From: Leisingera thetidis
GTDB taxonomy: Bacteria > Pseudomonadota > Alphaproteobacteria > Rhodobacterales > Rhodobacteraceae
Assembly (NCBI RefSeq): GCF_025857195.1
Contig: NZ_CP109791.1
Coordinates: forward strand, 57,781 to 121,780
Direction of reading: 5' to 3'
DNA: 64,000 nucleotides
Shown: piece by piece, positions 265 to 20,276 of the stretch
How the letters are laid out: each line of letters opens with the position of its first letter
Position numbering within the stretch: position 1 is the first letter of the stretch
The notes under the pieces: model-generated
What the model was told of the DNA's origin: nothing
Databases searched by the model: none
What the model saw: only the letters and a program-made list of their open reading frames with translations
Position numbers and translations under genes: made by a program

Positions 265-2655
265 TCAGCTTTGCGACGGGCGCACTGGATCAGGCATTTC
301 CAGCACCGGGCGGTAACCGTCCGGATCGGCGCTTGGCACCGGGTCCTTGGCGGTTCTGAGAGCGCTGCCGCGCGACAGCAGGATCAGCAGCGCAGGGGTG
401 ACGGTGAATTCAACCAGCAGACCCAGAAAGATCGTCGCCGTGGTGACAAAGCCGAATGTGGCAAGGCTTTGCACGGAACCGGTTGTGTAGACAATGAAGG
501 CCACCACCAGGATCAGGGTCTGGATGCCCATCGCCTTGCCTGCGCTTTGGAAGGTGCGGTGCAGGGCGGTGTCCAGATCCGCGCCCTGTCTGCGGCGGTC
601 CAGGAAGTTGCGGGCAAAGTGGATCGTGTCATCATCCAGCATGCCCAGGGCAATCGCGCCGATCAGGATGGTGAAGGGATCCAGGATGATCCCCATGTGC
701 CCCATGAAGCCCAGGACCAGCAGCACGCAGCAGACGTTGATTGCCGCCATCGTCAGGCCGATCACCACGGAGCGGGCGATCAGCATCATCACCAGCGCCA
801 CAACTGCGGTTGCCATCAGGAAGGAGGAAATCTGCGTTTCCGTCAGGAAGGTGCTGATTTCGAGCCACATCGGAACCACGCCTGTGACCACGACGGCGGC
901 ATCCGGATAACCCGCTTCGGCCATCATGGCTGCGGCCTCGGCCTTGATCGTTTTGACCAGCGGCGTATAGGCGCTGTAGGCGCGCGAGGGCACCAGGAAG
1001 GTCAGCCGGGCTTCGTCGAAGCCGCTATTGGCCACCCGCTCCATCTCGTCGTGGCCGGAACTTTCGAACAGCAGGATCAGCTGGGCAATGGCATTCCGGT
1101 CGTCCGGAATGGCGTAGCTGCCCAGGGTCTGTTCCGAAAGCTCCTTGACCACATCTGCCAGAGTGTAGGACTTGACCGGCACATCCTGGTCCACGGCAGC
1201 CAGTGCCTTTCGGGTGATGGCATCAACAGCGCGCAGCGCGGCAGGCTCTTTCAGGGCGTCCGTCCTGCCGAGCGAGATCAGCACCTCGATGGAGTTGGAA
1301 ACCGGAATGGCCGTGTTGGCGGCTTGATGCGCCTGGAACAGATCCGAGTCCTTCTTGAAGGTGCCCAGGTAGTAATAGTCCGTTTCCAGCTTGCTGACGC
1401 CCGCGATGGCGAAGGCCACCAGCACGGCAAACACCGCGAGGATCAGGCGAGGCGCGCCGATGGCGAAGCTGGCCATCGCGGCAAGCGCCGGGCTGTGCGC
1501 CGCGCGGCTGGTCTCCTGCCGGATGCGGTGGCCCCAGAGACTGGCCAGCAGCGGGAACAGGATCAGTGTGAAAATGCAGGCGGTCATCAGGCCGATCCCC
1601 AGGGTCAGGCCAACGTCGCGCACGGGCAGCACGCGCGAGCCGGAGAAGGCAAAGAGCGCACCGGCGGTGGTGATGTTCGCCAGCAGCGCGGGGCCGCCGG
1701 CCTCTTCCATGGTGTTGAGGATGGCCTTGTGCACCGCCTCGCCCCGGCGCCGGGCGCTGGTGAAATCCGACAGCAGATAAGCAGCGGTGCCCAGCCCGAC
1801 CGAAATCAGGAAGGAGGGGACAATCGGCGTCAGCAGGCCGGCGTCAGCGCCCCAAAGCCCCATCGCGCCAAGGGCGCAGGCGATCGACAGGCAGGCGACC
1901 AGCGGCGGCAGCGCCAGGGCCAGCCGGTGGCGGAAGGCGACGAAGAAGCCCGCCATCACCAGAGTAAAGGTAATGCTGCCGAATATGCCGCTTTCCATGC
2001 CGACGATGCGCTGCACGTCGGCGTCGAGGATGGGCGCGCCAATGGCGATGCCGTTCCACGCCGCATAGTCCGGCTGCGCAAGAATGGCGCGCACCGCCTG
2101 GGTGAAGCCCTCCTTGTCGGCGTTCGAGAAAGAGCTGACGGTTTCCACCAGCACACCGAATTGGGTGCCGCGGTCGTTCACGAACAATCCGCGGTAATAG
2201 GGGTGGGCGGGCGCCTTTTCCAGCCGTTCGGCGACTTCGGCCTGCGACAGGCCGGAGTGCAGGTAGTCGCCGACGTCGAGAATATCATCCCCGCCCGAGA
2301 TCGAGCGGACGTTGTGCAGCGCCGTCACCCGGTCGACACCGTCAATGCCTTCCAGCCTGGCTGCAAATCCCTCAAGCTCTTTGACAAAGGCCGCATTGGC
2401 CTGCGGCGGGGTCAGCACGATGAAGGAGAACTCGTCGGACTGGTACTTCTCCTTGAAGGCGTACCAGTCTTCGATGACCTCCGCCCCCTCCAGAAAGAAG
2501 CTTTCCGGAGAGGTGTCGAAGCCGAGGCGGGCCAGGCCGCTCATCAGGGTGGCGGACACCGCCAGCATAAAGACGATGGCCAATATGCGCTGCGCCAGAA
2601 CGAAGGATGCGAAGCGGCGCATGAACCTGGCGAGAAGGGGTTTTGAATGTGTCAT
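265..2655 (-). CDS. RND-superfamily (MMPL-type) exporter
   Basis: This 796-residue inner-membrane protein has the layout of MMPL/RND exporters of the hopanoid-transporter (HpnN-like) type. There is a first membrane helix at about residues 22-42, a long periplasmic loop beginning FDTSPESFF, a block of hydrophobic helices around 225-390, a second periplasmic domain, and a second helix block around 610-780. The DDDTIHFARNF segment near 680 is the conserved charged helix motif of the family. It lies 5 bp downstream of the three-domain fusion gene in a leftward operon with a LolA-like protein and pabAB. Such exporters commonly sit beside LolA-like proteins and move lipidic or aryl-lipid products to the outer membrane. 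Export of the locus product is therefore my inference; the substrate is unknown. Confidence 0.85.
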   Translation of the reverse strand: MTHSKPLLARFMRRFASFVLAQRILAIVFMLAVSATLMSGLARLGFDTSPESFFLEGAEVIEDWYAFKEKYQSDEFSFIVLTPPQANAAFVKELEGFAARLEGIDGVDRVTALHNVRSISGGDDILDVGDYLHSGLSQAEVAERLEKAPAHPYYRGLFVNDRGTQFGVLVETVSSFSNADKEGFTQAVRAILAQPDYAAWNGIAIGAPILDADVQRIVGMESGIFGSITFTLVMAGFFVAFRHRLALALPPLVACLSIACALGAMGLWGADAGLLTPIVPSFLISVGLGTAAYLLSDFTSARRRGEAVHKAILNTMEEAGGPALLANITTAGALFAFSGSRVLPVRDVGLTLGIGLMTACIFTLILFPLLASLWGHRIRQETSRAAHSPALAAMASFAIGAPRLILAVFAVLVAFAIAGVSKLETDYYYLGTFKKDSDLFQAHQAANTAIPVSNSIEVLISLGRTDALKEPAALRAVDAITRKALAAVDQDVPVKSYTLADVVKELSEQTLGSYAIPDDRNAIAQLILLFESSGHDEMERVANSGFDEARLTFLVPSRAYSAYTPLVKTIKAEAAAMMAEAGYPDAAVVVTGVVPMWLEISTFLTETQISSFLMATAVVALVMMLIARSVVIGLTMAAINVCCVLLVLGFMGHMGIILDPFTILIGAIALGMLDDDTIHFARNFLDRRRQGADLDTALHRTFQSAGKAMGIQTLILVVAFIVYTTGSVQSLATFGFVTTATIFLGLLVEFTVTPALLILLSRGSALRTAKDPVPSADPDGYRPVLEMPDPVRPSQS

Positions 2656-2660
2656 GGATC

Positions 2661-5600
2661 TTACTGCAGCCTGGTGGTTTCAAGGTTGATTTTGTCCTGG
2701 ACCATGTCCGAGAGGGCGAAGCGCTGCACCTTGCCGTTGCCGGTGCGCGGCAGCGCGTCGAGGAAGAAGATCTTGTGCGGGACCTGGGCCTTGGCGAACG
2801 TCTCGCTGATGACAGCCTTCAGGGCCTGCTCAAGCTCGGGTCCGGCGGTGGCGCCTGCGGCGGGAACCACAAAGGCATAGGGCCGCACCAGGGGTTCCGG
2901 ATGCTCGCGCAGGACCACTGCGCATTCCGCGACCAGGGGGTGCGCGTTGAGGAAGTTCTGGGTTTCCGCTGGTGACACCCAGACGCCGCCGACCTTGGTC
3001 AGATCCGTTGCCCGGCCCAGGTAGTGGAACCGGCCGTCGGCATCCATGCGCATGATGTCATCGGTCCGGTACCAGCCATCCTGAAAGGCCTTGGCGGTTG
3101 CATCAGGATTGCCAAGATACCCTTCGGCCACCGAATTGCCGCGGACCCAGGCCACGCCGGCTTCGCCCGCGCGGGTGACCTGCCCGTGCGCATTGCGGAT
3201 TTCGATGCTGAAGCCCGGAACGATGGCGCCGATGCTTCTGCCGCCGGGCTCGTCCTTGGGGGTGGCAAGGGCAAAGGACATGATTTCGGTGGCACCCAAA
3301 CCGTCCTGAATGCTGATGCCGCTGATCTGTTCCCAGGCGTCATCGACAAAGGGCGAGCGGGCCTCGCCGGCGGCGATGCACCGGCGCAGCGTGGACAGAT
3401 CGCGCGGCGGCTGCTTGACCAGAATGCTGTAGACGGTCGGCACCGAGAACAGCACGGTGGCCTTCTGCTGTTCGATCTGGTCCAGAATGGCTGCGGGATC
3501 GAACCGTCCGTTGCCCAGCAACAGGGCGGCGCCGTGATACAGCGCGGTCATCGACACCGAGAAGCCATAGGAATAGCTGAGCTTGGAGGTCACGATGACG
3601 TTGTCCTTCGGCGACAGCCCGATATTGTGGCGGCCATAATTCTCGGCCATATTGACCAGGTCGAGGACGGAGTGCGGCACCGCCTTGGGCAATCCGGTGG
3701 ACCCCGACGTGAAGATCACAACAGCCTCCGCCCCGGCGCTCGCGGCCGCGGACCGGGGCCCGGTTGCGGGTTGGCTCAGCAGCTGCGCATTGCTTTCAAG
3801 AACGGCCACCGGCAGCAGATCCGCCAGGCCCGCCTCCATGCCGGGGCTGCACAGCGCATGAACCGGCGCCGCGACCTGCATCATGGCGCGCAGGCGGTCC
3901 TGGGGCAGCGAGCTGTCCAGGGTGACCGGCACGGCGCCGATGCGCCACAGCCCTGCAACCGCCGCGATGTGGGCAAAATTGCCCGCCCCCGCCACAAAGA
4001 CCCGCGCACCCCGGCCGATGCCCAGCGTCAGGAAGCGGGCAGCCGACACACCGGCCGCATGGTCGAGATCCTTCCAGGTGAAAATCCCGCCCTCCATCTC
4101 CATGATCGCCGGATCGCTTGCGCCGATCCCTTCGGCACGCTGGCCGATCAGGCGGTGGTAGTAGTCGATGCTGTCTTCACTGGTCAGGGAGCGCGGATCC
4201 GCGGCCGCACTGGCCCGGGACAGAGCGGCATCGCTTCCGGCCGCGGCCGGGCTGCCGTCACCGATCAGGCTGCCCCAGTCGACCCGGCCGATCGGGCGGT
4301 CGAAGGCGCGCAGGTCCGCCAGCTCAAACCCGGTATCGGCGGCGATTTCGCGCAGCATGCTGACTTCGCGGTGCGACGGCGCGGCACCGACCGAGGTGTC
4401 TTCATAGTGCTTGCGCAGCGCCAGCATGACGGTTTCGGCGATGCAGGCAAAGGCAACCCCCTTGGGCATCGGAATGCCGAGGGCCAGCTGCGGGCGGCCG
4501 GGATAAGCAATGACGCCGCCGTCCATGATCAGCACATCATCGCGTTCTTCGCGGCAGCGGTAGCTGATGTTGCCGGGCCGGGACAGATCGCAGACCACGC
4601 TTTGCGGACGCAGATCCTCGGGGGTGATCAGCTTGTCGGTGGAGCTGGTGGCAGAGTAAATGATATCGGCGTTGCGCAGATCGCGGCTGCAATTGTCAGA
4701 GATCACGAAATAGCCGGGGTCGCGCAGCAGCTGTTCCGCCAGTTCCGCCGGGTCCGTCTGCCCGTCCATCAGCTTCAGCGCACGGTCCAGAACGGAGCCG
4801 GGCCGGGCCGGAAGCTCGCCGTCACGGGCCGCTTTCAGCCCCGCGGCCAGCGACCGCTTGAGCCGCAGGAAGGACTTTTCCATCGGCGTCGCCGGGTTCA
4901 CGAACAGATAGAGGCGCCGGGCGCGGGCCGAGATCATCTGCACCATGCCGCTGCCAATTGATCCCGCCGCGCCGATAATCGCCGCGGTGGCATCGCTTTG
5001 GCTGCGGCCCAGCGTGGTGGTGGCCCGGTCCGCGGCCATCAAGGCCGCTTCGATGGTGAAGCCATTGCCGGTAGTCACCGCCTGGCCCAGCGGGTCAATC
5101 CGGGACCCGCCCCGTGTCACGATCGAGGTGTAGCCGCCCAGACCGACAATCCGCGCACCGCGCTTGACAGCCAGGTTGACGCATTTCTGCACCAGCTCGC
5201 AGGCGTCGTCCTGCGGCATCGCCAGAAGCTGCCGGGCGCTGCGGGGCAGCAGGATGAAATCGCCGACCGCGCTTGAGCCGTCCTTGCCCTTGATCCGGGC
5301 GCGGCTCAGCAGGATGGGTTCGTCGAATTCGCCCAGAAGGTTGGTCAGCACATCCCTTTGGCTGCGGGTCACCTGCCGCAGCAGAGGGTCGAGGTTCTGG
5401 AGGTCGTCGGTTTCCAGCTGATGCACGATAAAGCCGAAGCGGCCTTCGTCCGGGCCGATTTCGCCGACCGGATCCGCCCCCAGGAAATCCACCGCGGATT
5501 CCCGTTCGCCGGCCTTGGTGGTGCCGGTGATATGCTTGGTGGCGCGCACCGTGTCCTGCGCGGCCAGCGCATCCAGGCATTCCCCGAGCGCGGCCGCATA

Positions 5601-6848
5601 GGTTTCGCATTCCTCGCCGGTGGTCAGGTAGCTGGGCAGGATCCGCAGCACCCCCTTGCAATTCGCCGCCGGCGTGACCCGGACACCGTTGGACAGCATG
5701 TGCCCTGCGGTCAGCGCCGGATACTGCTGGCTGGAACCGGCAAGGCCAAGGAAGGCGCCCTCCGATCCGGCAACCACATTGGATTGACGGCGGAATTCGA
5801 TGCCATGCAGCAGCCCGCAGCCGCGGGTCTGCGCGATCAGGTCCGGATAGGCGCGCTGCAGCCGCTGGTGAATGCTGTCCAGGGTGCTGCTGCGGGCGCG
5901 GATGCGGCGCAGCAGTTCGCCGTCGTTTTCCAGCAGCACGTCAAGCATGGCATTGGCGGCGGTTGCGGCATAGGCACTGCCGGCAAAACTGGACATCTGT
6001 TGAAAATCCAGCGACTTCGTCACTGCGCGGGGGCCAAGCAGGCACGCGGAGATCGGCATCACACCGCCCCCCAGCGCCTTGCCCAGAACGATGATATCGG
6101 GATTGCCGCCGGTCCATTCGGTTGCAAAGAAATGCCCGGTGCGGCCTGTCCCGGTCATGATTTCATCATGAATCAGCAGCACGCCGTGCTTGTCGCACAG
6201 GGCACGGACCGCTTCGAAATAGGCCTTGGGTGCCAGCTTGACGCCGCCCTCCGATTGCACCGGCTCCAGGATGACAGCCGCCATCGAGTCGCCCTCGGCC
6301 GCCAGGGCGCGGTCCATCGCATCAATATCGCCAAAGGGCACAAACACCGTGCCCGCCAGCTCGGCGAATTCATTGACCGGCGAGGTGTGCGTGACCGAGA
6401 GACCGCCAATGGATTTGCCGTGGGTGCCATTGACCGCAGCGACAAAGCGCAGCCGCCCGGTGGCGAGGCGGGCGGAATTCAGCGCGATCTCGATGGCTTC
6501 GGTGCCGGTGGTGGCAAAATTCACGCGCTCGGTGATGACCGGCGACAGGGAAATCAGACGCCGGGCAAGCACTTCGGCGGCCTCTGAAAAATACGGCTGG
6601 ACCAGATTGGTGAGCGGCAGTTTCAGGGTTTCCGAAACCGTTTCCGCAACCGGATTCGGACCATGGCCCAGCGGCAGGCAGCCGTGGCCGGGCACAAAGT
6701 CCAGCACAAGCCTGCCGCCGCCGCAATGCAGCTGGTTTCCGCTGGCACCGTTTACCTGGGTGTACAGGCCGCAGGTTCTGAGCTTGCGGTCAAGCAGCGG
6801 GTTGATGGGGTTCGGCTCGCTGGGATGTCCGAAATTTTCCAGAGGCAT
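2661..6848 (-). CDS. Trifunctional fusion: aminotransferase, acyl-thioester reductase, aryl/acyl ligase
   Basis: This 1395-residue protein fuses three enzymes. Residues 1-430 are a class III PLP aminotransferase, with the cofactor aspartate at D228 (LLIHDE) and Schiff-base lysine at K257 (VLGKALGGG). Residues about 465-815 resemble cyanobacterial long-chain acyl-ACP reductase (AAR). They carry the GLGGYTSI and TTGN blocks, a Rossmann GAAGSIGSG at 626-634, and a cysteine at C802 (AFACIAETVM) that aligns with the AAR catalytic cysteine. Residues about 890-1385 are an adenylate-forming domain closest by eye to benzoate-CoA ligases: TSGSTGLPK at 1047, GATEI at 1185, GVWVSPAE at 1288, and C-terminal lysine K1373 in GNGK. 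No carrier-protein domain (GxDS motif) is visible. The logical order is acid activation, reduction to aldehyde, and transamination to a primary amine. Substrate is inferred to be aryl (PABA-like) or fatty acyl. It is co-directional with the exporter and pabAB. Confidence 0.85.
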   Translation of the reverse strand: MPLENFGHPSEPNPINPLLDRKLRTCGLYTQVNGASGNQLHCGGGRLVLDFVPGHGCLPLGHGPNPVAETVSETLKLPLTNLVQPYFSEAAEVLARRLISLSPVITERVNFATTGTEAIEIALNSARLATGRLRFVAAVNGTHGKSIGGLSVTHTSPVNEFAELAGTVFVPFGDIDAMDRALAAEGDSMAAVILEPVQSEGGVKLAPKAYFEAVRALCDKHGVLLIHDEIMTGTGRTGHFFATEWTGGNPDIIVLGKALGGGVMPISACLLGPRAVTKSLDFQQMSSFAGSAYAATAANAMLDVLLENDGELLRRIRARSSTLDSIHQRLQRAYPDLIAQTRGCGLLHGIEFRRQSNVVAGSEGAFLGLAGSSQQYPALTAGHMLSNGVRVTPAANCKGVLRILPSYLTTGEECETYAAALGECLDALAAQDTVRATKHITGTTKAGERESAVDFLGADPVGEIGPDEGRFGFIVHQLETDDLQNLDPLLRQVTRSQRDVLTNLLGEFDEPILLSRARIKGKDGSSAVGDFILLPRSARQLLAMPQDDACELVQKCVNLAVKRGARIVGLGGYTSIVTRGGSRIDPLGQAVTTGNGFTIEAALMAADRATTTLGRSQSDATAAIIGAAGSIGSGMVQMISARARRLYLFVNPATPMEKSFLRLKRSLAAGLKAARDGELPARPGSVLDRALKLMDGQTDPAELAEQLLRDPGYFVISDNCSRDLRNADIIYSATSSTDKLITPEDLRPQSVVCDLSRPGNISYRCREERDDVLIMDGGVIAYPGRPQLALGIPMPKGVAFACIAETVMLALRKHYEDTSVGAAPSHREVSMLREIAADTGFELADLRAFDRPIGRVDWGSLIGDGSPAAAGSDAALSRASAAADPRSLTSEDSIDYYHRLIGQRAEGIGASDPAIMEMEGGIFTWKDLDHAAGVSAARFLTLGIGRGARVFVAGAGNFAHIAAVAGLWRIGAVPVTLDSSLPQDRLRAMMQVAAPVHALCSPGMEAGLADLLPVAVLESNAQLLSQPATGPRSAAASAGAEAVVIFTSGSTGLPKAVPHSVLDLVNMAENYGRHNIGLSPKDNVIVTSKLSYSYGFSVSMTALYHGAALLLGNGRFDPAAILDQIEQQKATVLFSVPTVYSILVKQPPRDLSTLRRCIAAGEARSPFVDDAWEQISGISIQDGLGATEIMSFALATPKDEPGGRSIGAIVPGFSIEIRNAHGQVTRAGEAGVAWVRGNSVAEGYLGNPDATAKAFQDGWYRTDDIMRMDADGRFHYLGRATDLTKVGGVWVSPAETQNFLNAHPLVAECAVVLREHPEPLVRPYAFVVPAAGATAGPELEQALKAVISETFAKAQVPHKIFFLDALPRTGNGKVQRFALSDMVQDKINLETTRLQ

Positions 6849-6872
6849 ACGCTTAGTTCTCCTGCAAGGGCG

Positions 6873-7673
6873 TCAAAGGCTTTGGGATCTGAAATGACCG
6901 CCGCCGAAATTCGGGCTGAAGTCGATTTTGCTCAGGCTGATCAGGGTTTCCCGGCCCTTGCCGTGCACAATCATGTGGCGCGACCGCAGGATGTGCTTGC
7001 CATCCGGCGCCTGGGCCGCCTTGGACATTTTCTGGGTCTTCAGATGGCGCCCTTTCTGGTCGAAGTAATCGATCTGGAACGGCACCATCGACCCGGCCCT
7101 GGCCTGGGTCACCGCGCGCGAATAGCCGATGCTGCGCCCGTATGAATCGCTGCGCACGGTGCTTTCCAATGTGATGCTGCTGCCGCTGCCGGCGGTGATT
7201 GCATGGGTGAAGTTTTCCAGCCGCATCGCCATCAGGTTGGCATAGCTGAAATCCGTTCCGGCAAAGGCATTGGCCTGTTTGGAGGCGGAAATGCGGCGCA
7301 CTTTGCCAAGGCTGGGAAGCATCAGCCAAAGGTCATTGTCCTTTCTGCTTTGCTCGTGCACCAGCAGCTTGGTGTCGCGCACATCCGCCGGCGCCAGAAA
7401 GACATAGCGGCGGTCGCTGAGGTCCTTGCCGCCCTGCCGGGCCGTGGAGACTTCCAGATCGCGGGTGCGCACCGGGGCGCCGGCCCGGCGCAGCTCGACC
7501 TTGGCCATTGCCGCCATCGCCCCGGTCAGCTCGATATTGTTGACCGCGGTTGCGGCTTCCAGCGCGTCCGGGGCCCCCAGCACCAGGCCGGGCGCCAGCA
7601 TTGCGGTTGCCAGGCTGCCGCCGCCAAGGGCAAGAAAGCCGCGGCGGGGAAGCCGTGAATGAGAAACGGGCAT
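6873..7673 (-). CDS. LolA-like outer-membrane lipoprotein-sorting family protein, secreted
   Basis: The 266-residue product begins with a Tat-like signal (LPRRGFLALGGG then a hydrophobic stretch to VLGAPDA). The mature part has the beta-rich pattern of the LolA-like family that accompanies RND/MMPL exporters, including RRYVFLAPADVRDTKLLVHE, DNDLWLMLPSLGKVRRI and the late FQIDYFDQKGRHLKT strand. I chose the ATG at 7673 because GAAAGGA lies about 8 bp upstream. A GTG at 7703, overlapping the pabAB stop codon as GTGA, is an alternative that adds ten residues. It probably shuttles or binds a hydrophobic product in the periplasm between the RND exporter and the outer membrane. That role is inferred from the pairing, since no ligand can be read from sequence. 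Confidence 0.75.
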   Translation of the reverse strand: MPVSHSRLPRRGFLALGGGSLATAMLAPGLVLGAPDALEAATAVNNIELTGAMAAMAKVELRRAGAPVRTRDLEVSTARQGGKDLSDRRYVFLAPADVRDTKLLVHEQSRKDNDLWLMLPSLGKVRRISASKQANAFAGTDFSYANLMAMRLENFTHAITAGSGSSITLESTVRSDSYGRSIGYSRAVTQARAGSMVPFQIDYFDQKGRHLKTQKMSKAAQAPDGKHILRSRHMIVHGKGRETLISLSKIDFSPNFGGGHFRSQSL

Positions 7674-7699
7674 GAGGGTATCCTTTCCGAAGTCCTGCG

Positions 7700-11173: not shown

Positions 11174-11175
11174 CC

Positions 11176-12423: not shown

Positions 12424-12439
12424 AGCAAGGGGCTTAACC

Positions 12440-14146
12440 GTGTTTCCGAAACGTCTGCAATTCATTCTCGACCGCACCGTCAATATCGCAACCCTGATGG
12501 ACACCGCAATCGCCGGGCGCGAAGAGGAGATCTTCTTCACCACCGACGAGCAGCTGCCGCAGTACGGCATCCCGGATGACGGGCTGAGCGGGGCCGGGCT
12601 GCGCAGCACCGTCAACCAGCTGTGCCACATGCTGCACAGCCGCGGTGTCCGCCGGTTTGACCGGGTGGCCATCTGGAAGAGCAATTCGCTGGATTATTTT
12701 CTGTGGAGCTATTCGGCCATGCGCCGGGGCGCAATTTCGGTTCCCGTCAATGGCCGGATGCCGGTGCAGAACTTTCTGAACTTCATCCGCCACAGCGGTG
12801 CCAGAACGGTTGTGACGGATTGCGCCGGGCTGCAGAACCTGCAGGACAGCGGCCTGCCGCTGGACGGGATCGAGCGGATCTTTTTGACCAACGGCAGCAC
12901 CGAGGTGCCGGGGATCGAAGTGATCCCGGTGCCTGACGCCTTTGCCCGGGCGCCAGCAGAATACGCCCCGCCGCATATGGACCGCGACCAGCATGTCATG
13001 ATCTGCCACACCTCCGGCACCACCGGATTCCCGAAGGGGGTCCTGCACGGCTCGGACAGTTTCATTCTTGCGGCCAAAGGCCAGATGCGGATCCAGTTCA
13101 TCACCCGGCGCAACCCGGTAATGTTTGCAGGCTGGATGAACCACCATATCAGCCAGGCCGGCTGCATCACCGCGCTGGCGGCCGGTGTGCAGACCCATGT
13201 CGTGACGGATCTCAGCGCCAATCACATCCTGCAGTCGGTCAGCGACTGGCAGCCGCGCCTGTTCTTTGCCTTTCCGGATATCTATCAGAATATGTGCCAG
13301 GCCGGCCTGGACAATTACAACCTGTCCTCGGTCCGGATGTGGATGTCCAGCGGCGACGCCATGCATGAGCACCACATCCGGCAGCTGACGGCCAAGGGCG
13401 CCTTTCTGCGCCTGTTCGGCAAACCGCTGGTCAGTTCCCTGTTCATGGAGTTTTTCGGGACTTCCGAAATCGGCTTTGCGGCATTGGTGAAGATCAGCGA
13501 ACGGCGGACCCGGAACTATGGGCGGCTGGTGGGGCGGCCGACACCGGCCAGCCCGGCGGTGAAAATAGCCGATGCCGAAGGGCGCCGCCTGCCGGCCCAC
13601 AAGGTGGGGCGCATGATGGTCAAGGGGCCGACGCTGTTCAAAGGCTATTGGAACCAGCATGACCGGACCCATGACGTGGTCCGCGACGGCTGGTGGTGGA
13701 CCGGCGATGTCGGGTTCCGCGACAATTTCGGGCGGTTCTACCAGATCGACAGGGATGTCGACACGGTGAACACGGGCCAGGGCCCGGTTTACGGTCTGCC
13801 GGTTGAGGAAGAAGCGCTGAAACTGCCGTCGGTGCGGGAAGCCGTGCTGGCGGCGCGCCCGGCCGCCGGCGCGGACGAGGCGGTGCTGCTGCTGCAGATG
13901 GCGCCGGGACATGCGGCCAGCCCCGCGGACCTGCTGGCGGCGCTGCAGGCAAACTGCAGCTGGGCGGCACATCTGTCGGAGGTGGTTATCATGCCGGAAG
14001 GCACCGTGCCGCCGCGCGGGCTGACAGGAAAGGTGCTGAAACGCGAAATCCGCGAACAGCTGCGGCAGCAGCCCGCAGCGGACGCCGCTGAGCCGCAGCC
14101 GCCGGCCGGCAAGCCTGCCGCTGCCAAGGACCTGGCCGATGCCTGA
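12440..14146 (+). CDS. Adenylate-forming acyl/aryl ligase
   Basis: This 568-residue member of the ANL superfamily carries the phosphate-binding loop CHTSGTTGFPKG, the FFGTSE adenine motif, DGWWWTGDVG with the adenylation Asp, and a C-terminal lysine in GLTGKVLKRE. It would activate a carboxylic acid as the adenylate and transfer it to CoA or directly to an acceptor. It is not of the benzoate-CoA-ligase type seen in the neighbouring fusion and looks more like fatty-acid ligases. The start is GTG at 12440, preceded by AAGGGG about 7 bp upstream; an in-frame ATG at 12332 would lie inside the previous gene. It overlaps the next gene by 8 bp, which points to coupled function with the acyltransferase-like protein. 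Confidence 0.83.
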   Translation: MFPKRLQFILDRTVNIATLMDTAIAGREEEIFFTTDEQLPQYGIPDDGLSGAGLRSTVNQLCHMLHSRGVRRFDRVAIWKSNSLDYFLWSYSAMRRGAISVPVNGRMPVQNFLNFIRHSGARTVVTDCAGLQNLQDSGLPLDGIERIFLTNGSTEVPGIEVIPVPDAFARAPAEYAPPHMDRDQHVMICHTSGTTGFPKGVLHGSDSFILAAKGQMRIQFITRRNPVMFAGWMNHHISQAGCITALAAGVQTHVVTDLSANHILQSVSDWQPRLFFAFPDIYQNMCQAGLDNYNLSSVRMWMSSGDAMHEHHIRQLTAKGAFLRLFGKPLVSSLFMEFFGTSEIGFAALVKISERRTRNYGRLVGRPTPASPAVKIADAEGRRLPAHKVGRMMVKGPTLFKGYWNQHDRTHDVVRDGWWWTGDVGFRDNFGRFYQIDRDVDTVNTGQGPVYGLPVEEEALKLPSVREAVLAARPAAGADEAVLLLQMAPGHAASPADLLAALQANCSWAAHLSEVVIMPEGTVPPRGLTGKVLKREIREQLRQQPAADAAEPQPPAGKPAAAKDLADA

Positions 14147-15521
14147 ACGCCATCGGATGACGACGCTGAACCGCATCTACATCTATTATGAAAAGATGCT
14201 CGCCCGGCAGGGGCTGAACGGCAATTCCTGCGATTGGTTCGAACTGGAAAACGCGCCGGACCTGGACATTCTGCGCCAGGCCGCGGCCTCGGTGGCCCGG
14301 CGGCATGCGGCGCTGCAGGCGGCCGGGTCCTTTGCCGGGGCGGCCGGGTGGAGCTGGGCGCGCAACCCCGAGGCACAGCCGGAGATACGCTATGTGCGCA
14401 CGCGGGGGCGGTGCCCGGAGCAGGCCGCCGACCAGCTGGTGCCGCAGAATGTCTGGGGAGAGCCGCTGGATCACGCCAACGGCCCGCCGTGGCGGATTTT
14501 TGTCACGGAATATGACGACCTGACCATCCTGCAGAGCGTCACCAGCCATATCTATACCTGCGGAAAATCCGCCAACCTGATCTCGGTTCAGCTGGTCAGC
14601 GCCTACGGGGCGCTGATGCGCGGGGAAAGCCCCGATGAAAGCCCGGCCGGGGTTGCGGACCGGGCGAATGCCAAACTGTTCATGCCCCGATGGTCCGCCT
14701 GGCGCCATCTGCGCTCCTTTGCGGCCACGATGCTGGACATGCTGCGCGAGACGGTGACGGCCCCGGTGGCCCTGGCGGGCAACAGCAGCAGCAAGCTCAG
14801 GCGCGGACGGACCCGGGTGCGCTTTGAAGACCTTGGCCCCGAGGTCTGGCAGCAACTGCGCCAGTTTGCCCGCTCCGAACAGATGAGCCGGCATCCATTC
14901 TACATTGCCGCCTGGGTTGAGGCGATCACGGCCTACAATGCCGCCCGGGGGCAAAAGCCAAAGGGCAAGGTCAAGCTGATCGACAATTTCTCGCTCAGAC
15001 CGTTCTCGGACCAGGACCTGAACGGCTACTACGACCTATGCGCCGTGCCTTACGCAATCGAGGTTCCGTCCGGCCCGTCGAACCGGGCGCAGCGTGAGCG
15101 GATTTTCGAAATGGTGGAAACCCTGCGCAAAGGCAAGGTGCTGGATGACCTTACCCGCTATGCCTTTTACCACAAGGTGATCGCCTTCCTGCCCAAGGTT
15201 CTGGCAACCAGGCTGGTGCTGATGCTGGTGGTCAAATCGCCGTTCATTCTGTCCAACATCGGCCCCGTTCCGCCGCAGATTCTGAACACGGGCGCGTTGC
15301 AGACCCGCCGGTACTTCAGCTTTCCGCAGCTGTTTCCACCGGGCAAGATCATGCTCTTGATCACCACGGCACCAGACAGTTTGCGGGCGGTCTTCCTGTG
15401 GGACGAGGACGCGGTGTCCTGTGCGGAAATGGAAAATGAAATGATCCCCGCCTTCAAGGACGCTCTGGCGCGCTCCATCGGGCTTGGAGCCGCCGCCAGC
15501 CGGCCGCAGGCTGCGGAATGA
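14139..15521 (+). CDS. Condensation-domain-like acyltransferase with altered HHxxxDG motif
   Basis: The 460-residue product has the outline of the CAT/condensation superfamily (NRPS C domains, wax-ester synthases, alcohol acetyltransferases). It opens with LNRIYIYYEKM, has RRHAAL at about 54-59, a motif region at 136-142, and a late LSNIGPVPPQ matching the SNxG strand of such acyltransferases. The usual HHxxxDG reads SHIYTCG here, so only the second (catalytic) His, H137, remains and the Asp is Cys141. Members join an activated acyl group to an amine or alcohol. Located between an acyl ligase and an aminotransferase, it is a good candidate for forming the amide or ester bond of the locus product. 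ATG at 14139 overlaps the ligase by 8 bp; ATG at 14157 is an alternative. Function is inferred. Confidence 0.65.
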   Translation: MPERHRMTTLNRIYIYYEKMLARQGLNGNSCDWFELENAPDLDILRQAAASVARRHAALQAAGSFAGAAGWSWARNPEAQPEIRYVRTRGRCPEQAADQLVPQNVWGEPLDHANGPPWRIFVTEYDDLTILQSVTSHIYTCGKSANLISVQLVSAYGALMRGESPDESPAGVADRANAKLFMPRWSAWRHLRSFAATMLDMLRETVTAPVALAGNSSSKLRRGRTRVRFEDLGPEVWQQLRQFARSEQMSRHPFYIAAWVEAITAYNAARGQKPKGKVKLIDNFSLRPFSDQDLNGYYDLCAVPYAIEVPSGPSNRAQRERIFEMVETLRKGKVLDDLTRYAFYHKVIAFLPKVLATRLVLMLVVKSPFILSNIGPVPPQILNTGALQTRRYFSFPQLFPPGKIMLLITTAPDSLRAVFLWDEDAVSCAEMENEMIPAFKDALARSIGLGAAASRPQAAE

Positions 15522-16393
15522 CCGGCGGCAAGTCGCTGCCGCTGCTGTGGTCGGACGGCGAATTCCTGTCGCCCGGCAGCCCGGTTTATGCCGCAACCGA
15601 ACGGGGCGCCGCGCTTGGCGATGCGGTGTTCGACACGGTGCTGTGCCTGGGCGGGAAGGCGGTGCTGCGGCAGGCCCACCAGCGGCGGCTGGAACACTCG
15701 GCCGATTTCTTTGCCCACCGCGCCGACGGCCGCCTGATCGCCGCCGCCTATGATCTCAGCGCGGAAACCGGCGAAGCCGCGGTCCTGCGGGTGTCGATCA
15801 GCCGCGGCGCGGGCGCGCGCGGGCTGGCGACCGACCTGTCGCAGTACAGCCGGGTGACAGCCATGCTGTCCCCCCTGCCGCCGTCGCTGCAATTCCAGCC
15901 GGTGGCTCTGGACATCGCCGCTGCCGCAAGAAACGAGACGTCGGCTCTCAGCCAGTGGAAAACCGCGTCCTCCTATCTCGACGCGGTTCTGGCCACCGGA
16001 GCGGCCCGCCAAAAGGGGCTGGATGATGCGCTGTTCCTGAACACCCGCGGCTTTGCCGCCTGCACCACGATGGCGAACATCTTTGCCGTCATGGGACGCC
16101 GGCTGATCACCCCGCCGGTGCATGACGGGGTCTTGCCCGGGGTGACACGGGGGCTGCTTTTGTGCCTGGCGGCCGACGCAGGGCTGGCCGCCGAAGAAGC
16201 CTCTCTCACCGCGCGGGACCTGCAGACCGCCGACGAGGTCTTTGCCTGCAACAGCCTGCGGCTGATCATGCCGGCAACCAATATGGGCGGGGCCTCGCTT
16301 CGGTTCCGCAGCGTCCTGGCCCGGCTGCTGCGGGACAGGATCGCACAGGAAACCGGTTCCATGCCGGCCCCGCCGGACTGGGCCGCGGATTAA
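15518..16393 (+). CDS. pabC: Class IV aminotransferase, aminodeoxychorismate lyase-like
   Basis: The 291-residue protein is a fold-type IV PLP enzyme. The probable Schiff-base lysine is K148 in SQWKTASSYLDAVLA. The family pattern RGAALGDAVFDTV near the N terminus, ALFLNTRGFAACTTMANIF around 170-190, and PPVHDGVLPGVTR are all present. With aminodeoxychorismate synthase in the same locus, conversion of aminodeoxychorismate to 4-aminobenzoate and pyruvate is the natural reading. D-amino-acid or branched-chain aminotransferase activity cannot be excluded from sequence alone. The start ATG overlaps the preceding stop (ATGA), and its 3' end overlaps the convergent SDR gene by 4 bp. Confidence 0.78.
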   Translation: MTGGKSLPLLWSDGEFLSPGSPVYAATERGAALGDAVFDTVLCLGGKAVLRQAHQRRLEHSADFFAHRADGRLIAAAYDLSAETGEAAVLRVSISRGAGARGLATDLSQYSRVTAMLSPLPPSLQFQPVALDIAAAARNETSALSQWKTASSYLDAVLATGAARQKGLDDALFLNTRGFAACTTMANIFAVMGRRLITPPVHDGVLPGVTRGLLLCLAADAGLAAEEASLTARDLQTADEVFACNSLRLIMPATNMGGASLRFRSVLARLLRDRIAQETGSMPAPPDWAAD

Positions 16394-17448
16394 TCCGCGG
16401 CCGCCAGTTCCTGCTGCATCAGCACGCGGCTGGTTTCCGCAATGCTTTCATCAATCGGGCGGAAGCTGAGGCCCAGCAGCGCCTGCGCGCGCGCGCAGGA
16501 GACTTCCGGTGCAGCGCCCAGATGCGGCAGGACATTCTGCAGAACCGGGTCGAATTTCGCCGCAGCCCGCACCATCGAATCCGGAGCAATGCCGGTTTTG
16601 ATGGCCCGGCTCGGGAACTGCTTGGCAATCACCCTTGCGATTCCAGCCATCGTCCGGGTTTCACTGGCCGCAATGATCCGTTGCCCGCAAGCGCCGTTGC
16701 GCAGCAGAGCCAGCACATGGGCTTCGGCCGCATCGCGGACATCGACACAGGGGAAACCGGCATTGGGCAGCGCCGGATCGCGGCCTCTCAGGAACCGCTG
16801 AATGACCCCGACAGAGGTCGCGCCGCTGCTGCCGATGGGCGGTCCGAAGGCAAGCCCGGGGTTGATCACGGTCATCTCCAGCCCCAGTTCGCCAGCCAGC
16901 GCCCAGGCCCGGCGCTCTGCGTTCAGTTTCGACAGCGCGTAGGCATCCGTGCGGGGATCATCGGGGCAGCTCCAGTCGCTTTCGTCGTACCGCAAACGCC
17001 CCGGCGCAAGCGGTGTCATCGTGACCGCAGCAATGGAAGACGTCACCACAACACGGCGTGTGCCCTGGGCTGCGGCCGCACGCAGCACCCGTTCGGTGCC
17101 TTCCGCCGCCAGTTTCACCAGATGCTGGGGATTCCGCGGCGGCCGGTCCGGAAAGGGCGAGGCCGTGTGAATGATGGCCCGGCACGAGTGGGCAGCCAGG
17201 TCCCAGCCGCTGTCAGCGGTCAGATCGGCCTCAATGAATTCCACCGGGAGGCTGTCCTTGCCCAGATATTCCTGCAGCGCGGCCCGCACCGGACCGGCTT
17301 TCCGGATGTCGCGCAGGGTGAGCACCACCCGGAATCCGCGGGCAAGCAGCGCCGCAGCCACATGGCGGCCAAGATAGCCGCCGCCGCCGGTGACGCAAAT
17401 GCGGTCTCCGGGCGCGATTGAAAAGTCCTCGAGGCTGTCCTCAGGCAT
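16390..17448 (-). CDS. NAD(P)-dependent extended SDR reductase, dihydroflavonol reductase-like
   Basis: The 352-residue protein is an extended short-chain dehydrogenase. It has the nucleotide-binding VTGGGGYLGRHVAAAL at about 19-34, an acidic ADLT motif, the TSSIAAV strand, the catalytic YALSK pair, and NPGLAFGPP. By eye it is closest to dihydroflavonol-4-reductase/aldehyde-reductase-type members that reduce ketones or aldehydes. It converges on the aminodeoxychorismate-lyase-like gene with a 4-bp overlap and lies 41 bp downstream of luxI on the same strand, so it may be transcribed with luxI. It could reduce an aldehyde or ketone intermediate of the pathway; the substrate is unknown. Confidence 0.78.
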   Translation of the reverse strand: MPEDSLEDFSIAPGDRICVTGGGGYLGRHVAAALLARGFRVVLTLRDIRKAGPVRAALQEYLGKDSLPVEFIEADLTADSGWDLAAHSCRAIIHTASPFPDRPPRNPQHLVKLAAEGTERVLRAAAAQGTRRVVVTSSIAAVTMTPLAPGRLRYDESDWSCPDDPRTDAYALSKLNAERRAWALAGELGLEMTVINPGLAFGPPIGSSGATSVGVIQRFLRGRDPALPNAGFPCVDVRDAAEAHVLALLRNGACGQRIIAASETRTMAGIARVIAKQFPSRAIKTGIAPDSMVRAAAKFDPVLQNVLPHLGAAPEVSCARAQALLGLSFRPIDESIAETSRVLMQQELAAAD

Positions 17449-17489
17449 ACGCGGTTTTCCTTTGTTGATAAACGCTGTCCGGACGCCGG

Positions 17490-18062
17490 TCAGGCGGTCA
17501 GGCGGATCGTGTTTTCGGCCGGCTCGACCCGGACCCGGGCAACGGCGATGGTCATATTGCCGCAGCGCCAGGGTTTGCCCAGAACCTGCAGATCATACCC
17601 GCGCGGGATCAGGATCCGCGCATAGATAAACAGCGGCATCAGCAGCAGGAACTCCGACAGACCCTGCCGCTGGCCAAACTGGTAGATCCGGCTGGTGATG
17701 GCGTCGATCGCCTCCGACCGCTCGGCGCTGTTCAGCGACCGGCAAACACCGAACCGGGTTGCCTCCCAGACGCGGTCGCTTTTGGGCAGCGGGCCGTCAT
17801 ATTCCTGCGAGAAACTCTTTTCGATCATATAGGTGCACGAGGTCGGCAGCAGGCGCGAGACGCCGACCACCTCATCCGCGTTGTTGATGCACAGCACGTA
17901 TTCCGTGGCCGGCGTGTCGAATTCGTCGAATTCCATGCCGCCGTAGCTGTTCAGATCCCAGCCCAGACGTTCGACGAAAATCTGATGCCGCAGCTTGAAA
18001 TGCGCGCGCCAGTAATGCGCGTATTTCCCGATATTCTGATTGTTCACGATGATAGTCCGCAT
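17490..18062 (-). CDS. luxI: LuxI-family acyl-homoserine-lactone synthase
   Basis: The 190-residue protein has the conserved LuxI residues: R25 and F29 in LRHQIFVERLGWDL, W35, acidic residues in EFDEFDTP, R70 in SRLLPT, and E100/R103 in WEATRFGV. It would make an N-acyl-homoserine lactone from S-adenosylmethionine and an acyl donor; the chain length cannot be read. I chose the ATG at 18062; a TTG three codons upstream is possible. The LuxR gene is 1.3 kb away in the opposite direction, separated by the hydrolase gene. A short motif at 18131-18150, about 70 bp upstream, recurs upstream of luxR and may be a LuxR site. Confidence 0.93.
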   Translation of the reverse strand: MRTIIVNNQNIGKYAHYWRAHFKLRHQIFVERLGWDLNSYGGMEFDEFDTPATEYVLCINNADEVVGVSRLLPTSCTYMIEKSFSQEYDGPLPKSDRVWEATRFGVCRSLNSAERSEAIDAITSRIYQFGQRQGLSEFLLLMPLFIYARILIPRGYDLQVLGKPWRCGNMTIAVARVRVEPAENTIRLTA

Positions 18063-18130
18063 GTCATCCAAGCCCCGCTTCCCGGAATTTGAATGGCAGT
18101 GTTAGGACGATCCCGGCAGCAGTAAACACT

Positions 18131-18150
18131 GTAACCTGATAGTTGCACGC
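18131..18150. promoter_or_regulatory. Candidate lux-box-like element upstream of luxI
   Basis: On the minus strand this reads as an imperfect dyad, GTGCAACTATCAGGTTAC, about 70 bp ahead of the luxI start. The half-site CGTGCAACT is repeated exactly at 19282-19290 upstream of luxR. A 20-bp imperfect dyad ahead of luxI is typical of LuxR binding sites, but the symmetry is weak (about half the positions) and the assignment is tentative. Confidence 0.35.
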
Positions 18151-18193
18151 GGGCCCGGCAGCCCTGACCGGGGATGCCGGGATTCGGCCCGCC

Positions 18194-19132
18194 CTATTGC
18201 TGCGAATCCAGAAAGGCGCGCAGCGCACGGCCTGACCCGGCCGGCTGGTCCAGCATCGGCACATGGCCGCACTCGTCCAGCCAGACCAGCTGCGCATCCG
18301 GCAGGGCCTTTGCCAGAACAGGCGCGCCGCTGGGATCGAAAATCCGGTCTTCGCGGCACCAGACGATCAGGCTCGGCTGTGTGATGCGGCCGGCAAGCTC
18401 CTGCAGCGGAACCGCAACCGAGCCGTTGACTTCCTTCCAGATCCGCCGGTTTGCCTTGGCATTGGCAATCTCCTGCCCTGCCCAGAGATCTTCAATCACT
18501 GCAGGCACATAAGGTTTTTCCGGGAACAGCAATGCGTTGCGCTGCTCAAAGGCTTCCGGACTGTCGGCCACCAGGGTTTTCTGCTCTGTCCGCATTGCCG
18601 CCTCAAACTTGCTTTCGCGCGGGGAACTGACGCCGACAGGGCTGCCGATGAAGGCAACACTGGCGACCCGTTCCGGAAACTGCGTGGCAAGCAGGCCGGC
18701 GATCTGCCCCCCCATCGAATTCGCTGCCAGATGAAAGCGCTCCACTCCGAGCGTGTCCAGCACAGCCATGAGGTTCTGCGCCTGCTCGGCATAGGCGTAT
18801 TCCCCTTCCGGCAGGACGGAATTGTCCCCGAACCCCGGCAAATCCAGCGCAATAACGTGGTAGTCTCCGCTCAGCTGCCGGGTCATGTCGATCCAATGTT
18901 CCTTTCGGGCGAAGATACCGTGCAGCAGGACAACCGTTTCCCCCTCGCCGCCTTCCAGATAGTGCACAGTTCCGGCCTTTGTTTCTGCCTGTTTCGCCGA
19001 CAGCCCGCTCACATAGACAAAGGCGGAGATCATCGCCCGGGCGCTCTGCGCCGGCCAGACCCGCAAGGCGGCGGCGGCGGCAAGGCCGGTCAGCAGGAGG
19101 GCGGTTGCAAGGATGAAGAGTTTCTTGGCCAT
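18194..19132 (-). CDS. Membrane-anchored alpha/beta hydrolase
   Basis: The 312-residue protein starts with a hydrophobic helix (LFILATALLLTGLAAAAAL) that should act as an inner-membrane anchor or signal. An alpha/beta-hydrolase domain follows: oxyanion strand VVLLHGIFA, nucleophile S139 in ANSMGGQ, acid in CREDRIFD, and His in CGHVPML. The ATG at 19132 is chosen because the longer in-frame extension to 19228 carries no hydrophobic signal and precedes this natural N terminus. The gene lies between luxI and luxR, transcribed with luxI. It could hydrolyse an ester, amide or lactone, including a homoserine lactone or the locus product. Sequence does not tell which. Confidence 0.75.
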   Translation of the reverse strand: MAKKLFILATALLLTGLAAAAALRVWPAQSARAMISAFVYVSGLSAKQAETKAGTVHYLEGGEGETVVLLHGIFARKEHWIDMTRQLSGDYHVIALDLPGFGDNSVLPEGEYAYAEQAQNLMAVLDTLGVERFHLAANSMGGQIAGLLATQFPERVASVAFIGSPVGVSSPRESKFEAAMRTEQKTLVADSPEAFEQRNALLFPEKPYVPAVIEDLWAGQEIANAKANRRIWKEVNGSVAVPLQELAGRITQPSLIVWCREDRIFDPSGAPVLAKALPDAQLVWLDECGHVPMLDQPAGSGRALRAFLDSQQ

Positions 19133-19270
19133 CTGAAGTCGGGTCTCCGCTGTGGGATGCTTTACCCAAAAGTGTGATCCTGACTCGGAAATGCAACCCT
19201 GAGTGATCAATTGCTGCTGCATCGGCATATTTCCCCGGCACCCCGCCTAGCAGATCTGCGCAAGGTCGCG

Positions 19271-19290
19271 CCACAATTATAAGTTGCACG
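19271..19290. promoter_or_regulatory. Candidate lux-box-like element upstream of luxR
   Basis: On the minus strand this reads CGTGCAACTTATAATTGTGG. It contains the same CGTGCAACT half-site as the element upstream of luxI and shows partial dyad symmetry. It lies 54 bp ahead of the luxR ATG and about 140 bp ahead of the divergent hydrolase gene, so it could serve either. The assignment is tentative. Confidence 0.35.
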
Positions 19291-19343
19291 GAAGGCCGGC
19301 CTGAAATACCTTGGCGTCAGATTAATTCATTTAGGATTTGGTG

Positions 19344-20063
19344 ATGCAGAATGCTGTTTCTAGCGGATGCAACCCGCGCAGTTCCATCGTGGACAGCCTA
19401 TTCAGCGAACTTCAGGAAAACACGGATTTCGAATATTTCGCCGCCTGCCACATAACCGCGGAAACCACGCGCGGCATCAATGCGGCGCAGCAGAACATGA
19501 AGACAAACTTCCCCGCCGAATGGACGGATCATTACCGCAGCTCCGGCCTGATCGGCTCTGACCCTGTTATCCAGTTCGCCCCCCGCACTAGCCGGGCAAT
19601 TTGCTGGCAGACGGTGCGGAACTGTGCAGCGTTCCAAAAGAAACATGATGCGGTTTACAAGGCGGCCAGCGATTTCGGCATTCATTCCGGGGTGCTGCTG
19701 TCTTCGCGCCAGTTCGATGGCAGCATTCAGATTATTTCCTTCTCAAGCTCGCGGAAGAAAGCATATTCGGACAAGGACTTGTCCCGTGCCTCCTACTACG
19801 GCCAGCTGATCGGGCACGCGGTAAGCAGCACAGTTCCGCCTGAAGACGAAGGCCAGGCAACCGGCGGGATTTCTCCCCGGGCACTGGAATGCCTGCAGCT
19901 TGCAGCATTGGGCAAATCTTCGGCGGAAATTGAGATCATACTCAACATCAGCCGGCATACAGTCGATTTCCACATCAAAAACGCGATGGCTGCCCTGGAC
20001 GCAAATACCAGAACCTTCGCCGTGGTCCGGGCGGTGCAGCAGGGCCTGATCCTTCCGTGTTGA
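19344..20063 (+). CDS. luxR: LuxR-family autoinducer-binding regulator
   Basis: The 239-residue protein has an N-terminal autoinducer-binding domain. The conserved W of the EWTDHYRSSGLIGSDPV segment and the later W in ICWQTV and GVLLS pattern are as in quorum-sensing LuxR proteins. A C-terminal helix-turn-helix follows (LECLQLAALGKSSAEIEIIL, then SRHTVDFHIKNAMAALDANTRTFAVVRA). The ATG at 19344 follows TTAGGA by about 8 bp; TTG and GTG codons just upstream are in frame but less likely. It should bind the lactone made by the nearby LuxI and control this locus. Base composition here looks less GC-rich than in the flanking genes, by eye. Confidence 0.92.
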   Translation: MQNAVSSGCNPRSSIVDSLFSELQENTDFEYFAACHITAETTRGINAAQQNMKTNFPAEWTDHYRSSGLIGSDPVIQFAPRTSRAICWQTVRNCAAFQKKHDAVYKAASDFGIHSGVLLSSRQFDGSIQIISFSSSRKKAYSDKDLSRASYYGQLIGHAVSSTVPPEDEGQATGGISPRALECLQLAALGKSSAEIEIILNISRHTVDFHIKNAMAALDANTRTFAVVRAVQQGLILPC

Positions 20064-20276
20064 CAGTGATCGGCCGGGTTGCTCCGCGGCAAAGGCCGGC
20101 GGCGGCCCATCGGCTTCGCTTTTGCCGGGCCAGCGGGACACGCTGCGCAAGGACCCGGCCCGCCGCGACCCGCAGGGCGAGATCCGGCGCCGCGCCGGAC
20201 AGGGCCGCGTCCGCGGCTTGCAGCCAGCCCCCCCGTCACCTACGGTCTGTTCTGCCAGATCTGCGCGAACCGGGAC

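Follow-up and report, generated by a model that had tools for sequence, protein, structure and literature searches.

According to the cited sections of PMC11705231 and PMC10777205, aryl diazotases are described from actinobacteria, where they act mostly on amines derived from 3-amino-4-hydroxybenzoate (3,4-AHBA) or 3-hydroxyanthranilate (3-HAA). The substrate of Aha11 is an alkyl-bearing aromatic amine (PMC11705231, same sections). The supply of 4-aminobenzoate (PABA) and its hydroxylation have been joined by engineers as an artificial pathway in C. glutamicum (PMC10466732, in the part cited). Here we describe a cluster of 14 genes in a 64,000-nt stretch of Leisingera thetidis (the window, to which all coordinates refer), part of a contig of 121,780 bases. 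The cluster encodes a PabA-PabB fusion (PabAB), a PobA-like flavin monooxygenase, a three-domain fusion enzyme, a standalone adenylate-forming (ANL) enzyme and a formate/nitrite transporter (FNT). On the most economical reading, for which we put the chances as about evenly balanced, the locus would make an exported, diazotized derivative of 4-amino-3-hydroxybenzoic acid. A preliminary description of this DNA had proposed a PABA-derived amide or amine; it missed the FNT neighbour and the diazotization step. Searches of the open-access literature in PMC found no paper on this Leisingera cluster.

Conservation and rarity of the locus

Thirteen genes, all with open reading frames and checked by profile scans, lie between positions 265 and 20063; those named in the preliminary description are real and intact. 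The fourteenth, encoding the FNT, begins at position 254 on the minus strand and crosses the window edge (Table 1). The same description had named co-conservation of the two arms as a check that could refute it. By tblastn, each of the four Leisingera relatives compared (M527, NJS204, M658 and L. aquimarina) has the whole set of 14 genes with the FNT. The ratio of nonsynonymous to synonymous substitution rates (dN/dS), calculated for one pair (window and M527), lies between 0.065 and 0.193 for all 14 genes.

Matches to the whole fusion, at 94–95% identity, come from four Leisingera plasmids and from L. aquimarina DSM 24565; a plasmid location is given for four named records. In a collection of 72,556 plasmid records, the fusion (at least 80% coverage) and the condensation-like gene each occur in four, all Leisingera. 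The condensation-like gene is present in 4 of 21 genomes of the genus (its own included), in none of 40 other genomes drawn, and in 1 of 398 genomes of the phylum; the standalone ANL gene is found at 1e-50 in 1 of 385 genomes of the class, and the fusion at 1e-75 in 1 of 398 genomes of the phylum, the single genome being its own each time, with few candidates scored per genome for long queries. At family level, 17 of 149 genomes matched at 1e-60, the 16 others through the ligase domain only. A single scan of named genomes for the fusion gave three loci, in L. aquimarina, in Phaeobacter sp. HF9A and, as a partial match at 38%, in an Acidimicrobiaceae bin. Because the 14 genes are kept in all four relatives, dN/dS is low and the genes are scarce, the locus is a real, selected and rare unit.

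The HF9A locus is a remnant with 3 of the 14 genes, namely the C-terminal part of the fusion, the MMPL exporter and the first 74 residues of the FNT (L023 9976–13851). The annotation of Leisingera sp. NJS201 shows the complete set of 14, but PabAB is divided into three pieces and the fusion into two (L094 17028–24187); these splits may reflect decay or an assembly error.

PABA supply and proposed hydroxylation

The supply of PABA and its hydroxylation form the best-supported part of the reading. The PabB part of PabAB scores 342.4 bits on TIGR00553 (cut-off 328.4) and its PabA-type part 140.2 bits on TIGR00566 (cut-off 121.05). Together with the PIKGT lysine motif, these scores identify an aminodeoxychorismate synthase. 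The dedicated PABA supply proposed earlier is borne out by the PabB score, other PabB/TrpE-type loci of the same genome being located on contig C1. For the PabC-like enzyme, PabC models rank first among 23 families with 115.8 and 114.4 bits (cut-offs 260 and, for TIGR03461, 176.85).

The PobA-like enzyme scores 437.7 bits on PRK08243 (cut-off 351) and 385.5 bits on the TIGR02360 equivalog (cut-off 538.7). It carries Q47, Q72, S294 and A295, where all 31 other 4-hydroxybenzoate hydroxylases (PHBHs) compared read V/I, H, T and G. Of these 31, a class-level search contributed 29 loci; the remaining two are the other PobA of the same genome and the P. fluorescens PHBH. Position 72 we take to be part of the proton relay through which 4-hydroxybenzoate loses its phenolic proton; an amine substrate would presumably need no such relay. 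Residues S212, R214, Y222, Y201 and Y385 are retained, and the carboxylate contacts are intact. Two of the 12 active-site positions named in the cited part of PMC10466732 are altered (V47Q and T294S). The same part reports T294S as an engineered change that raises 3-hydroxylation of PABA. In CvPHBH it gave 98% 4-amino-3-hydroxybenzoate, the highest share among the active-site mutants, compared with 47% for the wild type; M106A, outside the active site, gave 99%. In the Leisingera enzyme, serine 294 is natural. The active site is thus altered in a way that fits PABA, and the PobA-like enzyme probably hydroxylates it, in line with the hydroxy-PABA idea put forward before.

The putative acid-to-amine fusion enzyme

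The fusion comprises a class III transaminase (about residues 32–424), a thioester reductase resembling acyl-ACP reductase (AAR; about 440–880) and an adenylating domain (about 910–1385). The reductase has GxxGxxG at 626, and its Cys802 aligns with the FAC-AE stretch of cyanobacterial AAR. The order of transaminase and then thioester reductase is that of TamH, with a ligase domain added. On the PigE model (NF053554) the fusion scores 384.1 bits against a cut-off of 850, and PigE has the opposite order, reductase and then transaminase. Since the middle domain is an AAR-like thioester reductase, the transaminase-reductase part has a precedent in TamH/PigE.

The top PDB matches of the ligase domain are anthranilate- and benzoate-CoA ligases, and its score on TIGR02262 (benzoate-CoA ligase) is 258.9 bits (cut-off 375.25). 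In the tree it groups with benzoate-type ligases at 100/99 and pairs at 99/96 with a ligase of Streptomyces KN37, whose gene is divergent from the KN37 diazotase-like gene. Its substrate is therefore predicted to be an aryl acid, and the single fusion enzyme could in principle turn such an acid into a benzylamine. The domains suit the amine formation that was proposed earlier.

A different role is conceivable. Like TamA plus TamH, the fusion could make an alkylamine from a fatty acid. The condensation-like enzyme would then join this amine to 4-amino-3-hydroxybenzoate, with diazotization optional. TamH, which has the same domain order, accepts C7–C14 aldehydes (PMC9594044, in the section cited). 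On Paraburkholderia phymatum pBPHY01 (L029 11662–17745), a transaminase-reductase-like gene is followed by two others, one encoding an ANL enzyme whose C-terminal domain is DIP2-like and one a P450; the arrangement resembles a split version of the fusion and favours this role. The top PDB matches of the ligase, its benzoate-type grouping and its nearest neighbour, a ligase beside another diazotase-like gene, argue against it, and we consider an alkylamine route unlikely.

The standalone ANL enzyme

When the ANL enzyme was compared with the PDB, 161 sequences matched. The top four (8ZTZ, 9XB8, 9BQ0 and 8TF7) score 164.6–169.2 bits, and the next, FadD13, 106.8 bits. Entries 9BQ0 and 8TF7 are Tri17, an N-nitrosylase that also forms diazo compounds from anilines (PMC11705231, in the passage cited). 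The enzyme carries the P-loop HTSGTTGFPK and the C-terminal catalytic-lysine stretch TGKVLKRE. Two motifs and the lineage labels were defined in this analysis, not taken from print: of 14 lineage rows, all have H[ST]SGTTG and 13 have GD[AST]xH, and neither occurs in the 10 other ANL rows. The Leisingera enzyme has both, as HTSGTTG and GDAMH.

In the tree, 12 lineage rows are split from 13 others at 100/100, and the Leisingera pair is sister to the remaining lineage. This tree left out L044 (doubtful) and L043 and M527 (near copies), which the earlier 14-versus-10 grouping had contained. With the Klebsiella relative as query at 1e-40, 17 of the 72,556 plasmid records matched: six from Streptomyces, six from Sinorhizobium, four from Leisingera and one from Klebsiella. 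The tree covers part of these 17, and an Embleya lineage member stands outside them. The AvaA6 model (NF058622, 3-aminoavenalumate diazotase) gives 206.9 bits on the ANL enzyme; in a scan of its own genome (34 candidates scored) the enzyme has 206.8 bits and the next match 82.4 bits. The equivalog cut-off of 975 is missed by this enzyme and also by four related enzymes, which score 303–396 bits. We regard the standalone ANL enzyme as a putative ATP- and nitrite-dependent arylamine diazotase, and diazotization as probable from these likenesses. The preliminary description had counted two adenylate-forming enzymes. Both are present, but the second is sister to the diazotase lineage and not a typical acyl activator.

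The neighbourhoods of several relatives were also read, and they fit a supply of aminohydroxybenzoate or nitrite. Those in Klebsiella and Sinorhizobium adjoin 3,4-AHBA-synthase-like pairs, the Klebsiella synthase being below the BagC/FevH cut-off. Next to the relative in Streptomyces NBC_01022 is a nitrosuccinate lyase above cut-off, and Streptomyces KN37 has, by annotation, a 3-HAA-like gene set near its diazotase-like gene. Streptomyces NBC_00388 (L044) was set aside as a doubtful lineage member: AvaA6 gave no match at 1e-30, the G of GD[AST]xH is missing and its branch is long.

The plasmid of Klebsiella michiganensis BD177 carries a possible gammaproteobacterial diazotization locus (L038 4657–10590). 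Its diazotase-lineage ANL gene is accompanied by 3,4-AHBA-synthase-like genes and by a gene for an AvaA7-like short-chain dehydrogenase/reductase (SDR), which scores 82.6 bits, under the cut-off. On Sinorhizobium medicae plasmids (L041, L043), the neighbours of a diazotase-lineage ANL gene encode a large synthetase and 3,4-AHBA-synthase-like proteins.

Candidate genes for nitrite supply, export and quorum sensing

The FNT gene adjoins the cluster in all four Leisingera relatives and in the HF9A remnant. It may supply nitrite for diazotization, nitrite being the substrate we infer. An accompanying transporter gene has a precedent: the 8-azaguanine cluster contains a homologue of nitrate/nitrite transporters (PMC7674941, in the section cited). 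Among 134 ava-related clusters, 72 are without nitrite-making genes, and the authors give exogenous nitrous acid as one option (PMC10777205, in the section cited).

The MMPL exporter, the LolA-like carrier and the barrel-like protein are likely to form an export set, as the dedicated export of the preliminary description had it. A PDB sequence search with the condensation-like enzyme returned zero relatives. No carrier protein is encoded by the 14 genes, in agreement with that description, small open reading frames being outside the scan. LuxI and LuxR are both intact and exceed their cut-offs (24 bits for PF00765, 23 for PF03472 and 23.5 for PF00196; Table 1). Because luxI and luxR are linked to the cluster, they probably control the product by cell density.

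The extended SDR raises the question of whether the diazo group is retained. The ring amine could be diazotized and N2 then removed by the SDR, as by AvaA6 and AvaA7, to give a 3-hydroxybenzyl compound without ring nitrogen. An extended SDR is present in the cluster, and AvaA7 is NADPH-dependent and likened by its authors to sugar epimerases (PMC10777205, in the section cited). An AvaA7-like SDR also lies near the Klebsiella relative, as given above. Streptomyces NBC_00388, with its doubtful ANL gene, has another (210.4 bits). The Leisingera SDR, however, scores higher on HpnA than on AvaA7 (NF058621), whose cut-off of 400 it misses (Table 1), and AvaA7-type dediazoniation is unsupported. The SDR being HpnA-like rather than AvaA7-like, the diazo group may be kept; traceless loss of the nitrogen we hold to be very improbable.

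Proposed pathway and its weighing

Going by family scores, PabAB and the PabC-like enzyme would convert chorismate into PABA. The PobA-like enzyme, as its active-site changes suggest, would turn PABA into 4-amino-3-hydroxybenzoate, an ortho-aminophenol. Domains and motifs of the fusion predict a thioester from the ligase, an aldehyde from the reductase and a benzylamine from the transaminase. The condensation-like enzyme might conceivably N-acylate this benzylamine to a capsaicin-like head-and-tail amide. With ATP and nitrite, the latter possibly entering through the FNT channel, the ANL enzyme would convert the ring amine into an ortho-quinone diazide. The product would then be exported by the MMPL protein, the LolA-like carrier and the barrel-like protein. 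LuxI/LuxR would gate the process by cell density, and the ring and side-chain steps could proceed in either order. The side chain, the nitrite import and the quorum control are proposals. The most detailed version is a secreted, lipid-tailed 4-diazo-3-oxo-benzylamide (an ortho-quinone diazide) made from PABA by a Gram-negative bacterium, gated by density and drawing its distal nitrogen from nitrite through a dedicated FNT. We regard it as possible but doubtful. On this same doubtful version, density gating and nitrite import together would restrict the synthesis of a reactive product to dense populations with nitrite present.

Several observations weigh against a diazotized product or against single steps towards it. 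The ANL enzyme forms a divergent sister branch and is not nested among the diazotases. Within its lineage rows, Tri17 alone has a reported activity in the cited passages of PMC11705231. Of 14 control genomes, two also contain an AvaA6 match, under the cut-off. When the Leisingera enzyme served as query against the plasmid records, the matches listed include ordinary ligases at up to 146 bits, close behind the lineage members at 155–178 bits. Predicted structures have mean pLDDT (predicted local distance difference test) values of 31.7 and 35.8 from two alignment rows each, unusable for fold comparison. The PabC-like enzyme stays below both PabC cut-offs, and the fusion ligase reads SF where benzoate ligases have HI. 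The condensation-like enzyme has SHIYTCG at 136 in place of HHxxxDG and falls short of the PF00668 gathering score (Table 1). By NCBIfam the FNT is nearer to FocA (109.8 bits) than to NirC (39.7 bits), with all scores under cut-offs.

A nitrite-making route was likewise not found. The best CreD score in the Leisingera genome is 217.2 bits against a cut-off of 650, while the same model gives 774.2 bits on NBC_01022. A CreE query had zero matches in the Leisingera genome in a search without positive control; blastp with this query does hit NBC_00388, at 65% identity. With CreE unmatched and CreD relatives only below cut-off, the aspartate-nitrosuccinate route was rejected.

The acyl-homoserine lactone control of the preliminary description is suggested by the linkage of luxI and luxR; three intergenic regions were searched for a conserved lux box, and none was found. 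A palindrome about position 19250 (GCAGATCTGC) resembles a tra box but is altered in M527 and NJS204; no palindrome was convincing.

One alternative follows the preliminary description: PABA or 3-hydroxy-PABA would end as an amide or amine, made without N–N chemistry. The ANL enzyme would then act as a CoA ligase for acyl or aryl acids and serve the condensation-like enzyme, which would need an activated acyl donor, and the FNT would move formate or be incidental. In keeping with this, a generic CoA-ligase model scores slightly higher on the ANL enzyme (228.2 bits) than AvaA6 does, so that the two are about equal. The four related enzymes score only 121–164 bits on the generic model, against the AvaA6 values given above. 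The depositors of 9XB8 name it a fatty-acid-CoA ligase, and the FocA-like character of the FNT points the same way. Four ordinary ligases, however, reach 408–540 bits on the generic model, and both lineage motifs are missing from all 10 other ANL rows. The enzyme falls with the diazotase lineage both in the tree and when the Klebsiella relative is the query. A product without N–N chemistry is in our judgement unlikely, and we keep the diazotized 4-amino-3-hydroxybenzoate derivative as the preferred reading.

Gene order and surroundings

The layout comprises more transcription units than the two divergent operons described at first. On the minus strand, one arm runs PabAB, LolA-like carrier, fusion and MMPL exporter and extends, after a 10-base gap, to the FNT. 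The hydrolase, LuxI and SDR genes are also on this strand and converge with the arm from PobA to PabC, and LuxR stands apart on the plus strand. In the relatives, the PabAB start is annotated at a TTG equivalent to position 9823. Pfam and NCBIfam scans gave zero family matches for the barrel-like protein (11176–12423), and an Rfam scan of window positions 1–26000 gave no match.

Table 1. Genes of the Leisingera thetidis cluster, with window coordinates and the evidence for each assignment.
Feature	Coordinates	Strand	Evidence
FNT (formate/nitrite transporter), 5' part, 279 aa whole	1..254; L031 12196-13035	-	PF01226 205.7 bits; dN/dS 0.066
MMPL/RND-type exporter, 796 aa	265..2655	-	PF03176 85.4 bits; HAE3 family 133.7 bits, below cut-off 351.9
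Three-domain fusion, 1395 aa: class III transaminase, AAR-like thioester reductase, adenylating domain	2661..6848	-	Pfam, PigE/AAR alignments, PDB matches, motifs
LolA-like periplasmic carrier	6873..7673	-	PF17131 106.2 bits; Tat-like leader judged by eye
PabA-PabB fusion, aminodeoxychorismate synthase	7700..9847	-	TIGR00553, TIGR00566, PIKGT at residue 509
PobA-like flavin monooxygenase, proposed 4-aminobenzoate 3-hydroxylase	10007..11173	+	PRK08243 score and active-site residues
Outer-membrane-barrel-like protein	11176..12423	+	By eye: leader, C-terminal Phe
Standalone ANL enzyme, 568 aa, proposed ATP- and nitrite-dependent arylamine diazotase	12440..14146	+	PDB matches, motifs, tree
Condensation-superfamily-like acyltransferase	14139..15521	+	PF00668 21.6 bits, under cut-off 30.6
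Aminodeoxychorismate-lyase-like class IV enzyme (PabC-like)	15518..16393	+	PF01063 153.8 bits
Extended SDR, HpnA/SdmB-like	16390..17448	-	HpnA 115.8 bits, AvaA7 30.4 bits, both under cut-offs
LuxI-type acyl-homoserine-lactone synthase, TraI-like	17490..18062	-	PF00765 91.6 bits; TraI-type NCBIfam 82.8 and 79.3 bits, under cut-offs
Alpha/beta hydrolase, hydrophobic leader	18194..19132	-	PF00561 110.7 bits; leader read from sequence
LuxR-type regulator	19344..20063	+	PF03472 74.1 and PF00196 40.1 bits

The cluster is adjoined at 20079–26601 by a two-component system, followed by a QhpG-like flavoprotein (364.6 bits, cut-off 240) and the alpha subunit of a quinohemoprotein amine dehydrogenase. 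This is an amine-oxidation operon; NJS204 and NJS201 carry glycosyltransferase genes there instead. Downstream of the FNT in M527, NJS204, NJS201 and M658 (L025, L026, L094 and L095) are genes for RidA, an FAD and a (2Fe-2S) oxidoreductase and a TRAP transporter, probably an unrelated catabolic set.

Comparison with known systems

With TamH and PigE, of the tambjamine and prodigiosin pathways, the Leisingera fusion shares both domains, the GxxGxxG motif and the equivalents of the catalytic cysteine, in the order of TamH. It differs from both in its third, aryl-acid-ligase-like domain. The PobA-like enzyme shares with PHBH and the engineered PABA-hydroxylating mutants (PMC10466732, in the part cited) the fold, S212, R214, Y222, Y201 and Y385, and Ser294 as in T294S. 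It differs from PHBH in having Q47, Q72 and A295 for V/I, H and G, and it falls under the PHBH equivalog cut-off.

The clusters cre (cremeomycin), ava/cma, aha (tasikamides), pzm (penzonemycins) and tri (triacsin), as described in the cited sections of PMC11705231 and PMC10777205, resemble this locus in an aromatic amine, usually an aminohydroxybenzoate derivative, and an ANL enzyme of the same lineage. Unlike these actinobacterial clusters, Leisingera would use PABA and PobA-like hydroxylation and not the 3,4-AHBA or 3-HAA routes. It has an FNT gene instead of CreD/CreE, a Gram-negative export set and LuxI/LuxR. It also has the acid-to-amine fusion, no AvaA7-like reductase, and an ANL enzyme on a sister branch. 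The locus suggests a Gram-negative counterpart of the aryl-diazotase clusters, with its own aromatic route, possible nitrite import and a link to quorum sensing. The related plasmid loci of Klebsiella and Sinorhizobium hint that diazotization in proteobacteria may be broader than has been described.

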